DNA of 64,000 nt from NCBI GenBank assembly GCA_028819075.1, contig JAPPMM010000061.1:1-64000 (forward strand). The letters are read 5' to 3'. Made by a program: the position numbers and the translations under genes. Source of the DNA: Gammaproteobacteria bacterium (lineage in GTDB: Bacteria; Gemmatimonadota; Gemmatimonadetes; Longimicrobiales; Gaopeijiaceae). Shown one piece after another: positions 4,531 to 60,535 of the stretch (within the stretch, counting starts at the first letter, position 1; each line of letters opens with the position of its first letter). Below the pieces are notes generated by a model that saw only the letters and a list, made by a program, of their open reading frames with translations, did not search any database and was not told the origin of the DNA.

Positions 4531-6082
4531 CGGGCGCGTGAAGGGGGTCAACGGCGGGGACGCCGGGTTCGCGCGGATCCGTGGCGAAGGCGCGCTGTAT
4601 GGCGGATTCGATGGCAGCCACTTCGCCATCGCTCAGCTCGCGAAAACGGGGACGCTTCCTCGCCGAGAGCCGTCCTCCGTTCTGCACGCAGAGCCGTATG
4701 AGGAGCGAGGTGCGCCGGTCGGGCATGTCCACGATCTCCGAGACCGCTCTGAAGGCTCGATCGAAAGCGGCGATGAAGCCGAGTTCTTCCCGAAGATCGT
4801 GACGGACCGTCTCGGCCACCCGGTCGTGAAGGTATTCGGCGAACGCGGTCATATCGATGAACCGATAGAGATCGCGCGTGTCGCCTTCCACGAGCAGGCT
4901 TCTGTCCGGACCCCATCGCCAGTCGATGAATTCCAGGATCGGCCGGGAGAAGCTGTCCAGCACCCGATCGTAGCCACGACGATCGCGCAAAATGGCCGCG
5001 GACACAGGGAAGATGAAGTCCCTGGGCGTGTATCCCCTCGAAGCCAGCACGTGATGGATGAGGAACCGGTGGATGCGGCCGTTTCCGTCATCGAAGGGAT
5101 GAACGAAGACAAACGCGAAGGCCAAAACCGCCGCGCCGACGACGGGCGGAACGCTCTCATGCGAGACGCGCTCGGCCAGCTTCATCCAACCCTTCATGAG
5201 CGAGGGCACGTCGCCCGGCCGGGGGCACACGAAGTGGACCTCTTCGCGGAAGCCCGCACCCATCCGGCCGACGAAGATCTGAACGTCGCGCCAGTCCGTG
5301 GCGGCATAGCGCGGGTCGACGATCGACCCTTGAAGCCGGACCAGCGCATCCTTGTCCAGCGGGTCGAAGGTGGCTGCTTCGCTGAGCGCCCGCACGAAGC
5401 GAGCAGCACGACGCGAAGACGGCTTCTCGCCTTCGATTGCAAAGGAGGATCGCGTTTCCCGGGTGTACAGATAGTCGACCGCGCGGGTGAGAAGGCTCCG
5501 GTCGAACGCTGCGCAAAGGGAGCGTGCCTCGTCGTCGATGGGCATCGCCATCTGGCGCAGAAGCTTGGGGGTCCGCCTGACGGTAACACAGAGGTCGGAG
5601 CCGCCGAGCAGATTGTCTATGACCCGGTGCCGCCGGGAGTTGTGGCGCGCCGCTACGACGAACTTTTTCGGATCGAGGACTTCGACGTAGTTGCCGCTGC
5701 GCGCGTCGTCGACATCGAGGGTCCGTCCCGTGAGCGCCTCGTACAGGAACCACGCGCGGCGGCTGTAGGCACCCGTGGGCTCGCTCCGTACCCAGTCTTC
5801 CAGCGTCGCCGCATCGATCTGCCTGAAGGCCGCAGCCAGGATGCGCACATCAAACGGCTCATGGCGCAGCGTGAAACGGAGTTGCCCCGCAAGCGAGTGG
5901 TCCGGCGCGTAGTGCAGAGGATAGTCCTCCCGCACGCGGGTCCCGTGAACCTCGGTCCGGCGCGCGCCGGAAACCACATGACTCTCGACCGCCGGAACGG
6001 GTACGGCCAGGTCCAGCTCCTGGCGGAGCCAGGCCTGCCCCACAGGTCTCCTGCCGGGATGAGCGGTGTATCGTTGTGCCAT
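4526..6082 (-). CDS. Fic-domain protein (probable AMPylase), class II, 518 aa
   Basis: The Fic catalytic motif [12 protein letters not shown] is intact in the C-terminal half, so the protein should transfer AMP or a related group from a nucleotide to a target hydroxyl. An inhibitory-helix motif of the form S-x-x-x-E-G (SFAIEG) lies N-terminal to the core, which defines class II Fic proteins that are self-inhibited. The start is placed at the ATG at 6082; an upstream in-frame extension (to 6172) would overlap the GNAT gene and is hydrophobic and implausible. At 518 residues it is longer than minimal Fic proteins, with an N-terminal region of about 180 residues and a C-terminal helical tail. 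No dedicated antitoxin gene is adjacent, which fits self-inhibition. The physiological target is unknown. Confidence 0.88.
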   Translation of the reverse strand: MAQRYTAHPGRRPVGQAWLRQELDLAVPVPAVESHVVSGARRTEVHGTRVREDYPLHYAPDHSLAGQLRFTLRHEPFDVRILAAAFRQIDAATLEDWVRSEPTGAYSRRAWFLYEALTGRTLDVDDARSGNYVEVLDPKKFVVAARHNSRRHRVIDNLLGGSDLCVTVRRTPKLLRQMAMPIDDEARSLCAAFDRSLLTRAVDYLYTRETRSSFAIEGEKPSSRRAARFVRALSEAATFDPLDKDALVRLQGSIVDPRYAATDWRDVQIFVGRMGAGFREEVHFVCPRPGDVPSLMKGWMKLAERVSHESVPPVVGAAVLAFAFVFVHPFDDGNGRIHRFLIHHVLASRGYTPRDFIFPVSAAILRDRRGYDRVLDSFSRPILEFIDWRWGPDRSLLVEGDTRDLYRFIDMTAFAEYLHDRVAETVRHDLREELGFIAAFDRAFRAVSEIVDMPDRRTSLLIRLCVQNGGRLSARKRPRFRELSDGEVAAIESAIQRAFATDPREPGVPAVDPLHAPG

Positions 6083-36238: not shown

Positions 36239-37405
36239 ATGTACCCTAGATTGCTGGCTGCCATACTTCGTTCCACCCGGAAGAGTGCCCTGATCCTCGG
36301 ACCTCGGCAGGTAGGGAAGTCGACGCTCCTGTCTTCGCTTGGGCCCGACATCTCGGTGAATCTGGCCAGCCCGCGGGCGTTCCGCGACTACGTGAGCCAT
36401 CCGGAGCGGCTGGAGCGGGAACTCCACGCTTGTTCGCCCGGAAACAGGACTGTGTTTATCGACGAAGTCCAGCGGGTGCCGGCGTTGCTCGATGTCGTCC
36501 AGGTGTTCGTCGACGAGCAGCCCGATCGCTTCCGGTTCCTGCTCTCGGGATCCAGCGCGCGCAAGCTTCGTCGTGGCCAGGCCAATCTTCTCCCCGGGCG
36601 GATTCACGTTCACCACATGCACCCCTTGCTCGCTTGCGAACTGGGGGCCGGCTTCGATGTGAATCGCGCCCTGGCCCACGGCACGCTCCCCGGAATCTAC
36701 GCGGAACCGGACGAGCGCATCCGGAGCGCGGACCTCAGGAGCTATGCGGACGTCTATCTGCGGGAGGAGATCCAGGCCGAAGCCCTGGTTCGAAATCTCG
36801 GCGGCTTCTCGCGGCTCCTGGACCTGGTTGCGGCCTCGTCGGGCCGGATTCTCAACGTGCACGCGCTTTGCAAGGATGCTGGCCTGGGCTACGAGACCGC
36901 CCGTCGCTACGTCGAGGTTCTCGAAGATACGCTGGTCGCCTTCCGGGTTCCGGCATGGAGCGGATCGGACCGGTCCAGCCTGGTCCGCCACGGAAAGTTG
37001 TTCCTGTTCGACATCGGTGTCCGCAATGCACTGCTCAGGCGCCCTCTGGACGAGCCCCTGCCCGACGAGCGCGGATTCCTTCTGGAACATCTCGTCGCTT
37101 CCGAACTGCATCGGCGACTCGGCACGCTCTGGCCCGAGGCGGCGCTCTTCCACTACCGGACGCGGGGCGGCGCCGAGGTGGATTTCGTCCTGGAGGTGGG
37201 ACGCGAGCTGTGGGGCATCGAGGTGAAGGCGGGCCGGGACGTGACCCGCCGAATGCTCCGCGGGCTTGCTTCGCTGGCAGCGCGGAGTTCGCGCGTCAAA
37301 CGCCGGATCGTCGTCTTTCTGGGAGATCGTCCCCAGACGATCGCCGGAGTCGAGGTCCTGCCGCTGGCAGGTTTCCTGGGGCTGCTACCCGGCGAACTCG
37401 GCTAA
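36239..37405 (+). CDS. AAA_14/DUF4143 ATPase (388 aa)
   Basis: A stand-alone P-loop ATPase of the AAA_14 family: Walker A GPRQVGKST near residue 21, Walker B TVFIDEVQRVP near 75, and sensor LLSGSSARKL near 100. The C-terminal third is DUF4143, with the nuclease-like GAEVDFVLE followed by GIEVKAG, a PD-(D/E)XK-type pattern. These proteins are widespread accessory genes of unknown role, often with strong self-contained regulation. No Shine-Dalgarno is present and the predicted promoter lies right against the start codon, so the mRNA may be leaderless. It is on the opposite strand to its neighbours on both sides. Confidence 0.9.
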   Translation: MYPRLLAAILRSTRKSALILGPRQVGKSTLLSSLGPDISVNLASPRAFRDYVSHPERLERELHACSPGNRTVFIDEVQRVPALLDVVQVFVDEQPDRFRFLLSGSSARKLRRGQANLLPGRIHVHHMHPLLACELGAGFDVNRALAHGTLPGIYAEPDERIRSADLRSYADVYLREEIQAEALVRNLGGFSRLLDLVAASSGRILNVHALCKDAGLGYETARRYVEVLEDTLVAFRVPAWSGSDRSSLVRHGKLFLFDIGVRNALLRRPLDEPLPDERGFLLEHLVASELHRRLGTLWPEAALFHYRTRGGAEVDFVLEVGRELWGIEVKAGRDVTRRMLRGLASLAARSSRVKRRIVVFLGDRPQTIAGVEVLPLAGFLGLLPGELG

Positions 37406-53169: not shown

Positions 53170-53357
53170 GGGCCGGGCTTTGGGAGATCTCCGCGAGGTT
53201 GGCGAGAGTCGTGGGGTCGTAGATTACCGAGGGGCCATACGTGGAAGATACCGGACGAGGTGACATGTCATCAGATTGGCGAAGGGCTGGATGCAGGGCG
53301 ATTTGGCCGGAGCGCAGCGTCGAACGACGCGTATGGGTGAGACACGCGGGCGCTCGC

Positions 53358-56300
53358 ATGCCGTCGGTGGTTCAACAGGGGCTGCTGGGCACGAGCATCC
53401 TGTGCGCCGTCATGATCACCGCCTCGTGCGCGCCCCCCGGGCCGCGTGCCCGCATCTCCGAGGAGGTGCGCGTCCTCGAAACCTATCCGTTCTCCGACCC
53501 GAATCCCGTGCCGGTGCTCGCCACCGACCGCAGGCTGTATCCCTACCACACCTTCGAGGGATACGCGGCGACGCCCGAGCCGAGGGAATGGAACGTGGTG
53601 CGGATGGAGAACGATCTCATCGAGGTCTTCGTCCTTCCCGAAGTAGGCGGCAAGGTGTGGGGCGCGGTGGTGAAGGCGACCGGCCACGAGTTCATCTACC
53701 GGAACGAGGTGATGAAATTCCGGGACATCGCCCTGCGCGGCCCGTGGACCTCGGGCGGCATCGAATTCAACTTCGGGGTGATCGGGCACACGCCGGCCAC
53801 CGCCACCCCCGTCGACTATGACCTGCGGGAGAACGCGGACGGCAGCGTGAGCGCCATCGTGGGCGCCATGGACCTCCCGTCGCGCACCCCGTGGCGCGTC
53901 GAGATACGCCTGCCTCCGGACCGGGCCGCCTTCGAGACGCACGTTCTCTGGTACAATCCGACCCCGCTGGAGCAGCCCTACTACAACTGGATGACGGCCG
54001 CGGCCTTCGCGCAGGACGACCTGGAGCTGTTCGTGCCCGGAAACGCCTACCTGGAGCACTCCGGGCGGGTGCGCTCCTGGCCCGCGGACGAGGACGGGCG
54101 CTTCCTGCCCTTCTACAGCAACAACGCGTTCGGGAGGAGCAAGTCGTACCACGTCGTGGGCGCGCTGAACGACTTCTTCGGCGGCTACTATCACGACGAT
54201 GGTTACGGCTGGGGACACTGGGCGCCGCATGAAGAGATGCCCGGGCGCAAGATGTGGCTCTGGGCGCTGTCGCGCGAAGGCGGGATCTGGGAGGACCTCC
54301 TCACCGACACGGACGGGCAATATGTCGAGTTCCAGGCGGGGCGGCTGCACGTGCAGTACCAGCCGGGGGCGGATCGCAACCCCATCTCGCAGGCCGGGTT
54401 CGAGCCTCTCTCGGCCAGCCGCTGGACGGAGGTCTGGTTTCCGCTGGAGGGGACCGGCGGCCTGACCGACGCTTCTCCCCACGGCGCCATGCACGTCGAG
54501 CAGGAGGATGGCCGCCTTCGGGTGGTGGTTCAGGCCTTCGGGACAAGTGCCGACACGGTGACTGCGTGGTCCGGCGGCGAACAGGTGGGGGCGCGCACGG
54601 TGGCGCTCGAACCGCTGGAGCCGGTGGTGGTCGAGTTCGACGTGGACCCCGACGGCCCCTGGCGCGTTTCGGCGCCCGGACTCGGTCTGGAGGGCTGCTC
54701 GAATCCGGGAGAGGCCGGGTTTGGCGGGATTTGCGGACTCGATGGTGATCGCGCGCTGTCCCGGCCGTTCGCGACGAACGCCGAGGCCTGGGATGCCCTC
54801 CCGGAGACGGATCGGCTCGTGTTCGAGGCACGAGAGCTGGCGCGTGGCCGGCTCTACCCTGAGGCGCGGGCGCTCTACGACCGGGCGCTCGCCGCCGAAC
54901 CGTGGAATCGGCAGGCGCTGCTGGGTCTCGGCGCGCTGGCGCTGAGGTCGGCCCGCTACGAGGAGGGCCTCGTCCATGCGCGCCGTGCGCTCCAGCTCGA
55001 CACGTACGATCCGGAGGCCAACTTCCTTGCCGGGAACCTGTACCTCGCCCTGGGGCGCCGCGCCGACGCGCTCGACTCGTTCGGCTGGGCGGCTCGGTCG
55101 GTGGCCTTCCGGGCCGCGGCGCGCGTTCGGCTGGCGGAACTGGCGCTCGACGGTGGAGATCTGGCGGCGGCACGCCGCAACGCCGCGCTGGCGCTCGAAC
55201 ATGATCAGGGGAGCATTCCGGCCCGGGAAGTGCTGGCGATCGCATCGCGTTTGGCGGGGGACGGGATCGGCGCGGCGCGTGTGCTCGCGGAGCTGCTCGA
55301 GCTTGATCCACTCAACCATTTCTTCCTGGCCGAACGGTACCTCGCGGCGCGCGACGATCGATACGGAGAGCCCGCGGACGGGGCCGCCGCCCGCCTCGCC
55401 GCATCGATGCGGAGCGAGTATCCGGAGCAGACGCTGCTGGAACTCGCCGTGGGCTACGCCAACCGCGGGCTGCCGGACGATGCCGCCTACCTGCTGGAGC
55501 TGGCTGACGAGGTGGCCGGCGGCCCGGTGGCCGCGGCGTGGCGCGCCTTCCTGGCTGACGATGCCGACATGCTGCGCGGCGGGGTCGATCCCGCTTTCGC
55601 CTTCCCCTACCGGCCCGAGACCTTGCCGGTGCTGCGCTGGGCGGCTGCCGAAGACCCGCACTGGGCCTGGCGCTACCTGCTGGGCCTCAACCTGTGGGCG
55701 CTCGACCGCGACGCCGAAGCGGCCGACGTGCTGGCAGCCCTCGGCGACGAACCCGACTACGGACCCGCGTACGCGGCGCGCGCGCACTTGGCGGAGGCGA
55801 TGGGCGGTGACCCGGGGCCGGACTTCCGTCGCGCGGCCGCCCTGGATCCCGACAGCCGTCTCCTCCGCATCGCCCTCGTCCGGCACCTGCAGGAGGCTGG
55901 ACGATGGGCGGAGGCGCTGGAGGCGTCCGATCGGGGCCGGGAACTCTTCCCGGGCGACTTCAACCTCGACCTCCTCCACGTGCGCGGCCTCCTCCAGGCG
56001 GGCGACAACGGCGAGGCGATCCGGATTCTGGCGGAGACGCGCGTCCTTCCCTCGGAGAACGCCCGCGAGAGCCACCGCCTGTACGAGTTCGCGCATGTCG
56101 GGGCCGCGCTGGACGAACTCGATGCCGGGAATCGCGCGGCCGCTCGTGGCCATCTGGAGACGGCGCTCGAGTGGCCGGAATCGCTCGGTCAGGGCCGTCC
56201 CTTCGATCCGGACGAGCGGATGGTGCGGTTTCTGCTCGGGGTTGTCGGGGATGTGGGCGGTGGGCCCGGCGGCGGGTCTGCGGATGCCGAGGCCGCGGAC

Positions 56301-56414
56301 GCACTGCGCGCCCGCGCCGATTCGCCCGCCGGCGCGGCGTCGCCGACTGAAATGATCGAGCAAGCCCTTGTCCGCCGCGCGCTCGCGACGGCGGGACGTG
56401 TCGCCGGCAGGTAG
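53358..56414 (+). CDS. DUF5107 + TPR-repeat lipoprotein (1018 aa)
   Basis: The ATG at 53358 starts a lipoprotein signal ending near MITASCAPP; an ATG at 53265 with a better Shine-Dalgarno would give a long odd N-region. The N-terminal 450 residues are DUF5107, a galactose-mutarotase-like fold with VFVLPEVGGKVWGAV and IALRGPWTSGGIEFNFG. The C-terminal 550 residues are at least eight tetratricopeptide-like units (ARELARGRLYPEARALYDRA, LGALALRSARYEEGLVHARRAL and so on). This pairing of a sugar-binding or sugar-processing fold with TPRs is typical of periplasmic polysaccharide-related proteins in Bacteroidota and related phyla. No adjacent glycosidase confirms the substrate. Confidence 0.82.
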   Translation: MPSVVQQGLLGTSILCAVMITASCAPPGPRARISEEVRVLETYPFSDPNPVPVLATDRRLYPYHTFEGYAATPEPREWNVVRMENDLIEVFVLPEVGGKVWGAVVKATGHEFIYRNEVMKFRDIALRGPWTSGGIEFNFGVIGHTPATATPVDYDLRENADGSVSAIVGAMDLPSRTPWRVEIRLPPDRAAFETHVLWYNPTPLEQPYYNWMTAAAFAQDDLELFVPGNAYLEHSGRVRSWPADEDGRFLPFYSNNAFGRSKSYHVVGALNDFFGGYYHDDGYGWGHWAPHEEMPGRKMWLWALSREGGIWEDLLTDTDGQYVEFQAGRLHVQYQPGADRNPISQAGFEPLSASRWTEVWFPLEGTGGLTDASPHGAMHVEQEDGRLRVVVQAFGTSADTVTAWSGGEQVGARTVALEPLEPVVVEFDVDPDGPWRVSAPGLGLEGCSNPGEAGFGGICGLDGDRALSRPFATNAEAWDALPETDRLVFEARELARGRLYPEARALYDRALAAEPWNRQALLGLGALALRSARYEEGLVHARRALQLDTYDPEANFLAGNLYLALGRRADALDSFGWAARSVAFRAAARVRLAELALDGGDLAAARRNAALALEHDQGSIPAREVLAIASRLAGDGIGAARVLAELLELDPLNHFFLAERYLAARDDRYGEPADGAAARLAASMRSEYPEQTLLELAVGYANRGLPDDAAYLLELADEVAGGPVAAAWRAFLADDADMLRGGVDPAFAFPYRPETLPVLRWAAAEDPHWAWRYLLGLNLWALDRDAEAADVLAALGDEPDYGPAYAARAHLAEAMGGDPGPDFRRAAALDPDSRLLRIALVRHLQEAGRWAEALEASDRGRELFPGDFNLDLLHVRGLLQAGDNGEAIRILAETRVLPSENARESHRLYEFAHVGAALDELDAGNRAAARGHLETALEWPESLGQGRPFDPDERMVRFLLGVVGDVGGGPGGGSADAEAADALRARADSPAGAASPTEMIEQALVRRALATAGRVAGR

Positions 56415-56433
56415 CGCCTTCAGCCCATGCAGG

Positions 56434-56607
56434 ATGCTGGTGGGTCTCGGGGGATGCCTGGCTTTCGACACCCCGCGGCTCATGGTCGAACTCGGCACGC
56501 CGCCGGAGGATGCGATCAGCCGCGTGCGCGAATCGCGGTCTTGGCGCGCCATCGAGACCGCCGAGCAGGAAGCGCACGTAAGGAGTTGCCGGGCACTGGC
56601 AGAGTGA
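56434..56607 (+). CDS. Doubtful small protein or gene remnant (57 aa)
   Basis: A short frame starting ATGCTGGTGGGT with a GCAGG 3 bases upstream. The product (MLVGLGGCLAFDTPRL, then an arginine-rich amphipathic helix ending in RSCRALAE) matches nothing I recognise. It sits between the stop of the DUF5107 gene and the 23-bp repeat array. It may be a remnant of a larger gene or a chance frame in GC-rich DNA. Confidence 0.25.
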   Translation: MLVGLGGCLAFDTPRLMVELGTPPEDAISRVRESRSWRAIETAEQEAHVRSCRALAE

Positions 56608-56695
56608 TCTGGCGGACGCCGCTTCGGACCACGGTTCAGGGCTAGCTGCAAGCCTGTAGCCGATTGGGAACGTGTCCCTGGGCGGAGCCGGGCGA

Positions 56696-56811
56696 ATTGC
56701 AAATCCACGGCTGATGGAATTGCGAAGACACGATTGATGGCATTGCAAATAGTCGGTCACATCGATTGCAAAAGCACGACCGATATCGTTGCAAAACCAC
56801 GATTGGGTGCA
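56696..56811 (+). repeat. Five tandem 23-bp imperfect direct repeats
   Basis: Copies of TTGCAAA-xx-CACGA-x-TGATxG begin at 56697, 56720, 56743, 56766 and 56789, each exactly 23 bases after the last. The best-conserved parts are TTGCAAA at the start and CACGATTGAT in the middle. Unit 3 is the most divergent. The array is AT-rich against a GC-rich background and ends about 200 bases before the Fic start. Being contiguous without spacers, it is not a CRISPR array; it resembles iterons or a multimeric regulator-binding array. Confidence 0.85.
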
Positions 56812-57018
56812 CCGGTCAGCCGGCAGCGCTCGCTGTCATCACCGGCAGCGGTCACGGATACCAGCGGCCCGATGGCGTGGGCGTTATTCCGGTGGGGGTG
56901 TTGGGGCCGTGAGGGAGAGAACTTGGAACTCTCATGTGTCAGTTTGCACATTGGTGCAGCCTCCGCCCGGCGGGGTACGAGCCGCGGGGACGGAGACGGA
57001 CGGAACGTGCGGGGGAGG

Positions 57019-58401
57019 ATGATGGATTCGAAGGCGTTGGCGGTGGCGATCGCGGCATGGCGGGAACGCCGGGCAACCATGCGTGAGGAAGATGACGAGC
57101 GGCTGTGGAGGAAACTGCGTCTCGAGTGGAACTACAACAGCAACCACATCGAGGGAAACACGCTTACCTACCACGAGACCGAGTTGCTGCTCATCTTCGG
57201 CCGCACATCCGGTGGGCACCCGATGCGGCACTACGAGGAGATGAAGGCGCACGATGTGGCTATCGACCATACGCGACACTTGGCCACCGCAGAGCGGATC
57301 CTGGGAGAGGGCGACATCCGGGATCTGAACAAGATGCTTCTCAAGGAGCCGTTCTGGCACATTGCACAGACCCCGGACGGGCAGCAGACCCGGAAACGGA
57401 TCGTTCCGGGTGAGTACAAGACCCAGCCGAACCACGTACGAACTGCTACCGGGGAAATCCATCGGTTCGCGGAGCCCGAGGAGACGCCGGCGCTCATGCA
57501 GGCGTGGGTCCATGACTTTCGGCGCGACTTGCGCGACTCGGACATGAGCGAGTCGCAATTGCCGCTGTTTCTGGCCCGGTCACACTGGAATTTCCTGCGC
57601 ATTCATCCGTTCGATGACGGAAATGGGCGAACCGCGCGGCTTCTGACCAACTACGTTCTGCTGAGGTCCGGTTTGCCTCCGATGGTGATCAAGAGCGCCG
57701 AGCGGGACCGCTACATCGGGGCGCTGCAGAACGCCGATCTGGGTCGAATGGCGCCGCTTGAGGGGTTCATGCTGGAGAGTGTCCTGTGGTCGCTTGGCCT
57801 TGCGATCCGAGCTGCGAAGGGAGAATCACTCCGAGAGAGCGAGGATGTAGGAAAGGAGATTGCTTTCTTCGTCCGACGCCACAGGGCTGATGAGCCGAAG
57901 GCGTCCGATGTCGAATTGCTGGACGATATTGTTAGCCAACGGATTCGTCCGACGTTTCAACGTGTCAAGGAGACGCTTGAGCCCTTGGGTGATTTGTTTG
58001 CGGCTAGCAGTTGGCAGTTCTTTGTCAAACGCGGTCAGAGAGACGTCGTCCAAGGCGTAGGCTCGTTCGGAAGTCGCCTGTGGGAAAGCCTGAAGGAGTA
58101 TGTGGTGGTGCCGGGATTTCGGCTCTCCAACGAACCAAGGCTCAGGTTGGAGAGCAGATCTCTTTGGCGGGACTACGCGGGTCGCGAAGGGAAGACCTTT
58201 TCGCTTGAGCTCTTTCTCATCTGGGAATTCGACGAAAAAGGGGTGGTGTTCTCGGTCGAGATCGACGGTAGGCGCATCTTCGTCCAACGTGTTCGTTACG
58301 CCGAGGTGCTGACGCTTGGTGCGGAAGCGGATCGCACCGAAGACTTTGTCAGCCAGGCCATGATGGCCGAGATCGACCATCGTTCAGCGGAGCAAGAGTG
58401 A
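57019..58401 (+). CDS. Fic-domain protein, class II (460 aa)
   Basis: It has an intact catalytic motif [13 protein letters not shown] and, N-terminal to it, the inhibitory-helix motif S-x-x-x-E-G-N (SNHIEGNTL), so it belongs to the self-inhibited class II group. The N-terminal half has the DUF4172-like [15 protein letters not shown] context and the C-terminal part is an unfamiliar region of about 150 residues after the Fic core. The ATG pair at 57019/57022 follows GGGGGAGG. Upstream, over 300 bases contain a remnant frame and the five-unit repeat array, so regulation is likely elaborate. Target and donor nucleotide are not evident. It is only distantly similar to the first Fic protein (4526-6082) outside the core. 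Confidence 0.88.
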
Positions 58402-58492: not shown

Positions 58493-60535
58493 CTATCCCG
58501 GCACCGGCTCCGGCACTCTCGCCAGCGCGCGCGCCTTAGCCACCACCGCCTCCGTCGTGATCCCGAACTTCTCGAACAGCACCGCACCGGGGGCCGACGC
58601 CCCGAAGTGGTCGATGCCCACCGAGGCGCCGCGGTCGCCGGTCCAGCGGGTCCAGTCGGCCGTGGTTCCTGCTTCCACTGACACGCGCGCCCTGACCTCC
58701 GGAGGAAGCACCTCGTCGCGGTAACCCTGCGGCTGACGGGAGAAAAGGAACCAACTGGGAAGCGAGACCACCCGCGTTGGCACGCCCTCCGCCTGGAGCA
58801 CCGCGCGCGCCTGCACGGCAACCCCCACCTCGGAGCCGCTCGCGATGAGGATCGCCTCCGGGTCGCCGCCGTCCGCTTCCAGCAGGACGTAGCCGCCGCG
58901 GTGCAGCCCGCTCGCGGGGGCCGCCTCGTCGCGGTCGATGATCGCCACCGCCTGGCGGGTGAGCGCCAGGAAGCTGGGCCCGCCGGCGTACGCGAGCGCC
59001 GCCCGCCACGCCTCCGCCGTCTCGGGCCCGTCGCCGGGTCGCAGGTCGAGCACGCCCGGGATCGCGCGCAGTGACATCAGCTGCTCGATGGGCTGGTGGG
59101 TGGGGCCGTCCTCGCCCACGCCGATGCTGTCGTGGGTGAACACGTAGGTGACCGGCACATGCATGAGCGCCGCCAGCCGGATCGACGGGCGCATGTAGTC
59201 CGAGAAGATGAGGAAGGTGCCCCCGTACGGGCGCACGCCGCCGTGCAGGGCCAGCCCGTTCAGGATGCCGCCCATGGCGTGCTCGCGGACGCCGAAATGG
59301 ATGGTGCGCGCGCCCGGCGTCCCGGCGAGCAGGTTGTCCTCCCAGGGCAGAGTGGTCTTGTTGGAGCCGGCCAGGTCGGCCGAGCCGCCCAGCAGGTTGG
59401 GGATGCGCCGGCCCAGTCCCTGAAGCACCTGCCCGGAGTACACGCGGGTCGCGAGCGGCTTCGGCGGCGCGCTCAGGTCGGGGATGTCCGCGTCCCAGTC
59501 GGCCGGCAGCTCGCCCGCCAGGGCCGCCCGCAGCTCCTCGGCCGCGGCCGGATGCTCCGCCCGGTAGGCCTCCCACCGGCCCCGCCACTCCTCCTCCAGC
59601 CCCGCCCCCCGCGCCGCCGTCTCCCGCCAGTGCGCCAGCGCTTCCGCCTCCACGTGGAAGGGGTCGCCGGACGGGTAGCCCAGGTTGCGCTTGGTGGCGC
59701 CCACCTCCTCCACCCCCAGCGGCGCGCCGTGCGACGACGACGACCCCGCCTTGCCGGGGCTGCCGTACCCGATGGTGGTGCGCACGACCACCAGGGAAGG
59801 CCGCTCCGTCTCCGCCCTTGCCCCCGCGACCGCCGCGTCGAGAGCGGCCAGGTCGGTGCCGTCGTCCACCCGGCGCACGTCCCACCCGTACGAGCGGAAG
59901 CGCTGCTCGTGGTCGGTGGAGCAGGAGAGGTCCGTCCCGCCGTCGATGGTGACCTGATTGTCGTCGAACACCCAGATCAGCTTGCCCAGACGCTGGTGTC
60001 CGGCGAACTCCGCCGCCTCGTGCGAGATCCCCTCCATGAGGTCGCCGTCGGAGCAGAGCGCCCAGGTGTGATGGTCCACCACGGCGTGCCCGGGCCGGTT
60101 GAACCGGTGCGCCAGCCAGCGCTCGGCGAGCGCCATCCCCACCGAATTCGCCACTCCCTGACCGAGCGGGCCGGTAGTGGTCTCGACTCCCACCGTGTGC
60201 CCGTATTCCGGGTGCCCGGGTGTGCGTGAACCCCACTGCCGGAACTGCCGGATCTCCTCCAGCGGCAGGTCGTATCCGGTCAGATGCAGCAGCGAGTAGA
60301 TGAGCATCGACGCGTGCCCCGCCGACAGCACGAAGCGGTCTCTGTTGCTCCACTCCGGGTTCGCCGGGTTGTGGCGCAGGTGCCGGGTCCAGAGCAGATA
60401 CCCCACCGGCGCCAACCCCATCGGAGCCCCCGGATGCCCGGAGTTGGCCTTCTGCACGGCGTCCATGGAGAGCACGCGCACGGCGTCGACGGCGAGCCGC
60501 GAGAGTGCGGGGTCAGGAAGCGGGGAAGCGGGCAT
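58493..60535 (-). CDS. tkt: Transketolase
   Basis: A full-length 680-residue transketolase of the pentose-phosphate pathway and Calvin-type carbon shuffling, using thiamine diphosphate and Mg2+. Visible motifs are [12 protein letters not shown] near residue 30, the TPP-binding [14 protein letters not shown] near 165, HSFGAS-like GAPLGVEEV, and the second-half signatures [18 protein letters not shown] near 400 and [14 protein letters not shown] soon after. GAGGAAAGG lies about 7 bases before the ATG at 60535. It reads leftward with its own AT-rich upstream region. The Fic gene converges on it from the left, about 90 bases away. Confidence 0.96.

Follow-up and report, generated by a model that had tools for sequence, protein, structure and literature searches.

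The locus considered here lies in a window of 64,000 nucleotides, which is the whole stretch of DNA that was analysed. It runs from a TPR-repeat gene to a transketolase gene and contains an array of short direct repeats, the end of a deleted ATPase gene and a Fic gene:

53241..56414, + strand: TPR-repeat gene, 5' flank of the locus and syntenic marker
56696..56811, + strand: five-unit phased 23-bp array, putative orphan PDC-S01 operator array (TRF; the same array lies 5' of the intact ATPase in G001, G005 and G006)
56811..56912, + strand: remnant of the deleted AAA_14/DUF4143 ATPase, last 33 codons (TGQPAALAVITGSGHGYQRPDGVGVIPVGVLGP) plus stop (tblastn, translation)
57022..58401, + strand: Fic/DOC-family gene, 459 aa, downstream partner of the lost ATPase (Pfam Fic, E 1e-15)
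58493..60535, - strand: transketolase gene, 3' flank of the locus and syntenic marker

The five units start at 56696, 56719, 56742, 56765 and 56788, with TTGC at +1 and a spacing of exactly 23 bp throughout, and read ATTGCAAATCCACGGCTGATGGA, ATTGCGAAGACACGATTGATGGC, ATTGCAAATAGTCGGTCACATCG, ATTGCAAAAGCACGACCGATATC and GTTGCAAAACCACGATTGGGTGC. The array was recovered independently by TRF (period 23, score 70), in agreement with a sequence-only reading of this DNA, which had described five exactly phased 23-bp repeats, AT-rich within GC-rich DNA. The GC content is 46.6% in the array vs. 68.3% in the whole window. That reading gave TTGCAAA and CACGA as the shared core; the gene-oriented core is (A/G)TTGC(A/G)AA-N3-CACGR, in which TTGCRAA is found in 5/5 units and CACGR in 4/5 (unit 3 has AGTCGG), and the pairwise identity between units is 11–17 of 23 positions. 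A genome-wide low-complexity repeat, the outcome that would have told against that reading, was rejected, because a search of the whole genome for a three-unit pattern gave 3 overlapping matches, all at the window array (0 matches with the reversed control), and the 14-mer core with one mismatch allowed gave elsewhere in the 4.4-Mb assembly isolated single matches only; no second array with this core was found in the assembly. A known RNA element was also rejected, as there is no Rfam match at the array. The three-unit pattern was matched in 17 of the 154 genomes of the order, and the copy-number variation that had been proposed as a check is seen among relatives, with about 2 to 5 units across the genus.

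In the sisters G001, G005 and G006, the gene order is TPR gene, array, AAA_14/DUF4143 ATPase, Fic and transketolase (the G005 contig stops short of the transketolase gene), Fic being the third gene of the ancestral locus. The ATPase family is PDC-S01, a PADLOC phage-defence candidate defined as a COG1373-type ATPase with AAA_14 and DUF4143; the PADLOC model consists of the single protein, whereas here an upstream array is added and the gene is deleted in the window. The window species (G000 and G009) has kept the array but lost the ATPase by deletion. The roughly 200 bp before Fic, previously taken to be free of genes, in fact encode at 56811-56912 the C-terminal 33 residues and the stop of the deleted ATPase, 82% identical to the G001 protein over its residues 405-437 (tblastn, E 1.6e-12). 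This remnant is joined directly to the last array unit, so that the deletion junction connects the last unit with codon 405. The ATPase has also been lost and the array kept in G008; three units are retained in G007, from which both ATPase and Fic are gone, and the TPR-transketolase junction is bare in G003. Because the AAA_14 plus DUF4143 gene, intact in the three sisters, is absent from the window locus save its last 33 codons, the array is an orphan there. Its identity as the leftover control array of a deleted PDC-S01 ATPase gene is well supported, and with the ATPase gone, it probably became a relic recently, unless it is read by a different PDC-S01 protein. About 280 bp at 56414-56696, between the TPR stop and the array, are absent in the sisters, whose array begins almost at the TPR stop.

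The synteny also shows that the link between the array and Fic is accidental: the intact ATPase stands between the two in G001, G005 and G006, and Fic adjoins the window array because the intervening gene was deleted. The Fic gene has an ATG preceded by GGAGG and resembles PDC-S04 in PADLOC (E 1.9e-29). Upstream of Fic genes in the window's family, a strong 22/23-bp lag was found in 1 of 30 regions, and three phased 7-mers at lag 22 or 23 were found at no Fic locus. An operator of Fic was therefore rejected, on the synteny with the ATPase and the array-poor Fic upstream regions. The proposals of a regulator-binding array or an iteron set were close in kind, although their attachment to Fic was wrong; a recombination site is unlikely, although it would agree with occasional 3' arrays and with the three units of G007 minus both genes. 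The window contains a further DUF4143 gene (36764-37234, + strand) and another Fic gene (5045-5362, - strand), neither with a 22/23-bp array.

An array 5' of the PDC-S01 gene is found across two domains of life. We scanned the DNA of 84,980 species genomes blindly for ATTGCAA at 23-bp spacing in three units and obtained 74 loci, whose hosts range from methanogens to Bifidobacterium, Chloroflexota and Pseudomonadota. With a profile of ATPases taken from the window's family, the ATPase was detected at 40 of the 74 loci; at 37 of these 40, the phased units stand on the 5' side of its start. The commonest unit in the scan loci, in gene orientation, is TTGCAA-(T/A)-Y-R-G-M-C-G. Several of the 34 loci without the ATPase are other near-identical repeats, gene-coding repeats or clipped by locus ends, and one (L216) has a more distant AAA_14-like ATPase nearby. 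A phage-wide feature was also considered and rejected, the commonest length among the viral matches listed being 49 bases, which corresponds to a period of 21 bp and not 23.

Arrays on the 3' side were seen at 3-4 of about 40 ATPase loci. Same-motif 23-bp units are present on this side at L265 (G000:C45; about four units after the ATPase), L205 and L214. At L270 (2106-2200), a DUF4143 ATPase without a 5' array is followed immediately on its 3' side by three copies of TTGTCGGTTAG spaced 23 bp apart. Two units lie 3' of Fic in G005 and G010 (L283 5321-5366; L361 1445-1490), beside the transketolase-side boundary. Three loci in Clostridia (L211, L213 and L232) carry TTTGCAATAAAA-type 23-bp arrays without an adjoining ATPase and are possible orphans like the window array. 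Bacteroides E30 bin188 (L162, L180, L181, L189 and L219) has intergenic 23-bp near-identical repeats, ATTGCAACxxTGTTTCA, with no adjacent PDC-S01 gene.

A scan with a 23-bp pattern imposes its own spacing, and spacing counts from it are biased by the query; our claim on the period therefore rests on gene sets that were not selected for arrays. Of the upstream regions of 80 DUF4143 genes from the window's family, 13 contain 10-mer pairs at lag 23, more than for any other lag, and 6 contain such pairs at lag 22. Visible arrays are present at about 15 of these 80 genes, almost all within one clade, and at 5 of the 16 DUF4143 genes in the window's own genome (motifs TTTTCACC, TTTCGTTTGGACGA, TTTCTGCCG, CGATTGGACGC (22 bp) and TTGCAA). 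In all such counts, arrays may be missed or merged by metagenome assembly. In the DUF4143 tree, arrays are found in 49 of the 51 rows of one large clade. We further examined 60 PDC-S01 paralogs in eight genomes, to which array loci had led; each genome was entered via at least one TTGCAA array, so that a few of the 60 genes are entry loci and the others are unselected. The best lag upstream of these paralogs is 23 in 42 of 60 and 22 in 1 of 60, with every other lag at 2 or fewer. The median lag-23 score is 35.5 in the paralogs vs. 4.0 in block shuffles and 5.0 inside genes, and strong lag scores were rare in the controls (0/300 block shuffles, 1/40 gene interiors, 1/30 Fic upstream regions). 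Arrays stand at 18 of the 20 PDC-S01 genes tested in a methanogen (G154, L170) and at 12 of the 13 tested in Bifidobacterium panos (G156, L212). Among plasmid-borne relatives in named isolates, the best lag is 22 or 23 in 9 of 10, one of the nine weakly.

The period is held at 22-23 bp, and the unit sequence is specific to the paralog, with related ATPases having related units. Compared within and between genomes, the consensus units of 36 arrays are almost as dissimilar as shuffled units: the mean best-rotation identity is 0.472, vs. 0.452 for shuffled units, and only 4.3% of the unit pairs lie above the 99% null limit. Array similarity nevertheless increases with protein similarity (rho about 0.27; Mantel, 0/300), and the motif class tracks the ATPase tree, with 11 changes vs. 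47.7 in shuffled data (0/200 shuffles). Two private units, searched through the whole genome with up to 3 mismatches, were found only in their own arrays. Since units have diverged between paralogs and the two tested are confined to their own arrays, spacing is conserved while wording is gene-specific. This combination, read from sequence, points to a local, cognate reader rather than a regulon or a single host factor.

For most arrays of the bacterial TTGCAA class, the distance from the end of the array to the ATPase start codon is no more than about 60 bp, and some arrays overlap the codon; in several the last unit contains the ATG or GTG (TTRCAATYRGMCGATG). There are also arrays that stop 70-170 bp short of the start and probably lie upstream of the transcript. 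Unit orientation with respect to the gene is constant. In the window genus, CATACT or CATGTT comes 17 bp after the last TTGCAA. We considered TTGCAA as a sigma-70 -35 box with the -10 box one period on, which the window genus fits (17-bp spacer, CATACT), but across the arrays as a whole the register shows only weak enrichment, in part because the next degenerate unit occupies the same place. It is suggestive in the window genus and not general.

The array-linked ATPases have AAA_14 and DUF4143 domains (Pfam), and four of the array-bearing ones match the PADLOC PDC-S01 model with E values of 3e-65 to 3e-172 (for the Pseudoxanthomonas homologue vs. PDLC04790, E 2.7e-172). In an AlphaFold2 model of the Corynebacterium homologue (pLDDT 93.4), the nearest solved folds to residues 1-294 are the STAND ATPases 2qen (Z 15.2) and 2fna (Z 13.4), with NLR and CED-4 modules ranking behind them (Z 12-15 for the matches as a whole); Foldseek matches to the model include DNA-bound Cdc6/Orc1. 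The protein is thus predicted to have the nucleotide-binding and winged-helix fold of STAND/AAA ATPases. In the C-terminal part, E312, D342, E357 and K359 are invariant in 32 of 32 sequences, and these presumptive catalytic residues, together with a predicted alpha-beta-beta-beta-alpha-beta core, suggest a PD-(D/E)XK domain. The DNA-reading part was localised neither by domain-wise similarity nor by column mutual information, segment scores being flat. The core is shared with the STAND/Orc-like archaeal ATPases PABY2304 (2qen) and SSO1545 (2fna) and with the NOD modules of NLRs and CED-4, from all of which the PDC-S01 ATPase differs in its added C-terminal PD-(D/E)XK-like domain. To our knowledge, the descriptions of STAND/Orc-like ATPases and NLR/CED-4 do not include a phased cognate array. 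The passages on PDC-S01 in PMC12988326 describe an ATPase fused to PD-(D/E)XK, place PDC-S01 fourth by abundance among prokaryotic defences in a 2026 count, and state that most PDCs still await validation; PDC-S01 is also reported to be the single locus met most often in rumen genomes (PMC12988326, PMC13356809). In the open-access literature that we searched, its passages on PDC-S01 included, we came upon no account of the array, and DUF4143 is mentioned there only in a Thermus gene table.

Among known systems, plasmid iterons offer the closest working analogy. Those of R6K pi and pPS10 RepA are direct 22-bp repeats bound sequence-specifically by a winged-helix initiator (PMC4980987), and the R6K pi protein is cited in that source as autorepressing. 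The PDC-S01 arrays share with them several direct repeats per array and fit the iteron pattern of about 17-22 bp at constant spacing (lag 23 in 42/60 paralogs, 22 or 23 in 9/10 plasmid cases); they differ in that the protein is a STAND/AAA ATPase with a nuclease-like domain, that the array is placed where its own gene starts, and that private arrays number dozens per genome. Because no replicon is evident, we do not claim membership in iterons proper. CRISPR arrays likewise place regular repeats near an immunity-type gene. The PDC-S01 arrays, in contrast, have whole units head to tail (23 bp here, 22-24 bp only overall) without unique spacers, which is not the CRISPR arrangement; they require no cas genes, and the two tested units are absent elsewhere in the genome.

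We favor, as reasonably probable, the interpretation that the array is an iteron-like operator of the PDC-S01 gene, read by the gene's own STAND-like ATPase-nuclease for local autoregulation, with units diverged for insulation. Both the binding of the ATPase to its own array and the autoregulation are what we infer here. ATPase copies would bind side by side, one protomer per unit (about two helical turns), and shut their own promoter and start region; the ATPase would be held in a bound, low-level state, as with iteron plasmid initiators. A trigger, for example infection, might alter oligomerisation or occupancy, relieving repression and licensing the nuclease. The divergence of units between paralogs of the same genome could reflect harmful cross-recognition, comparable to plasmid incompatibility. 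Four findings count against this interpretation: co-variation between arrays and proteins did not localise the DNA-reading part of the ATPase, many DUF4143 genes have no visible array, the 3' arrays at a few loci are left unexplained by simple autoregulation, and an array can outlast its own gene, as in the window. A bolder extension, possible but rather doubtful, is that PDC-S01 forms a class of immune-type ATPase-nucleases in which each gene has a private, self-specific DNA ruler, the array, fixed at 22-23 bp but free to diverge in sequence, serving as both resting platform and sensor. The trigger would be loss of occupancy, for instance when a phage interferes with host DNA or transcription, and a single genome could hold dozens of orthogonal pairs of protein and array.

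Other explanations account for parts of these data. The arrays could act as RNA, as repeated leader elements at the 5' end of the ATPase mRNA for translation control or protein binding, which would suit the extension of several arrays into the start codon and the single orientation of the units; this is unlikely, given the lack of an Rfam match at the window array, the arrays that probably end upstream of the transcript, and the exact two-turn helical spacing, which is expected of double-stranded DNA binding. Similarly unlikely is a mobile unit (array, ATPase, cargo, array) that has the arrays as its ends or recombination sites and from which array-by-array recombination removes genes. Such a unit would agree with the same-motif arrays on both sides of the ATPase at L265, the pair of units that follows Fic in G005 and G010, the three units of G007 without ATPase or Fic, and the bare junction in G003. 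However, 3' arrays are confined to a few loci, no transposase or integrase common to the loci was seen, and the window deletion joins the last unit to codon 405 and not array to array.

Reading by a host-encoded regulator instead of the ATPase is given little weight here. A reading domain did not map within the ATPase, as this explanation would have it, but the arrays track the ATPase gene through archaea and many bacterial phyla, and with units private to single paralogs, dozens of dedicated host factors would be needed per genome. It is very improbable that the arrays are replication or partition iterons of chromosomally captured episomes: 22-23-bp direct repeats beside an Orc/STAND-like ATPase do recall iteron origins, and several relatives are plasmid-borne, but there are up to 53 copies per genome in mostly chromosome-sized assemblies, no replication genes are adjacent at the window site, and the array lies at the gene's own start.

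If the operator interpretation is correct, the array is the first handle on the control of a very common candidate defence gene. Its constant geometry and paralog-specific sequence make testable which part of the ATPase reads DNA, whether the array silences the gene, and how 50 copies are tolerated. The arrays could also help to recognise PDC-S01 loci, degraded ones included, and they offer many natural protein-DNA specificity pairs. The copy number of PDC-S01 reaches extremes in small genomes, with 50 in the 1.6-Mb methanogen G154 and 53 in the 1.9-Mb Bifidobacterium panos G156.
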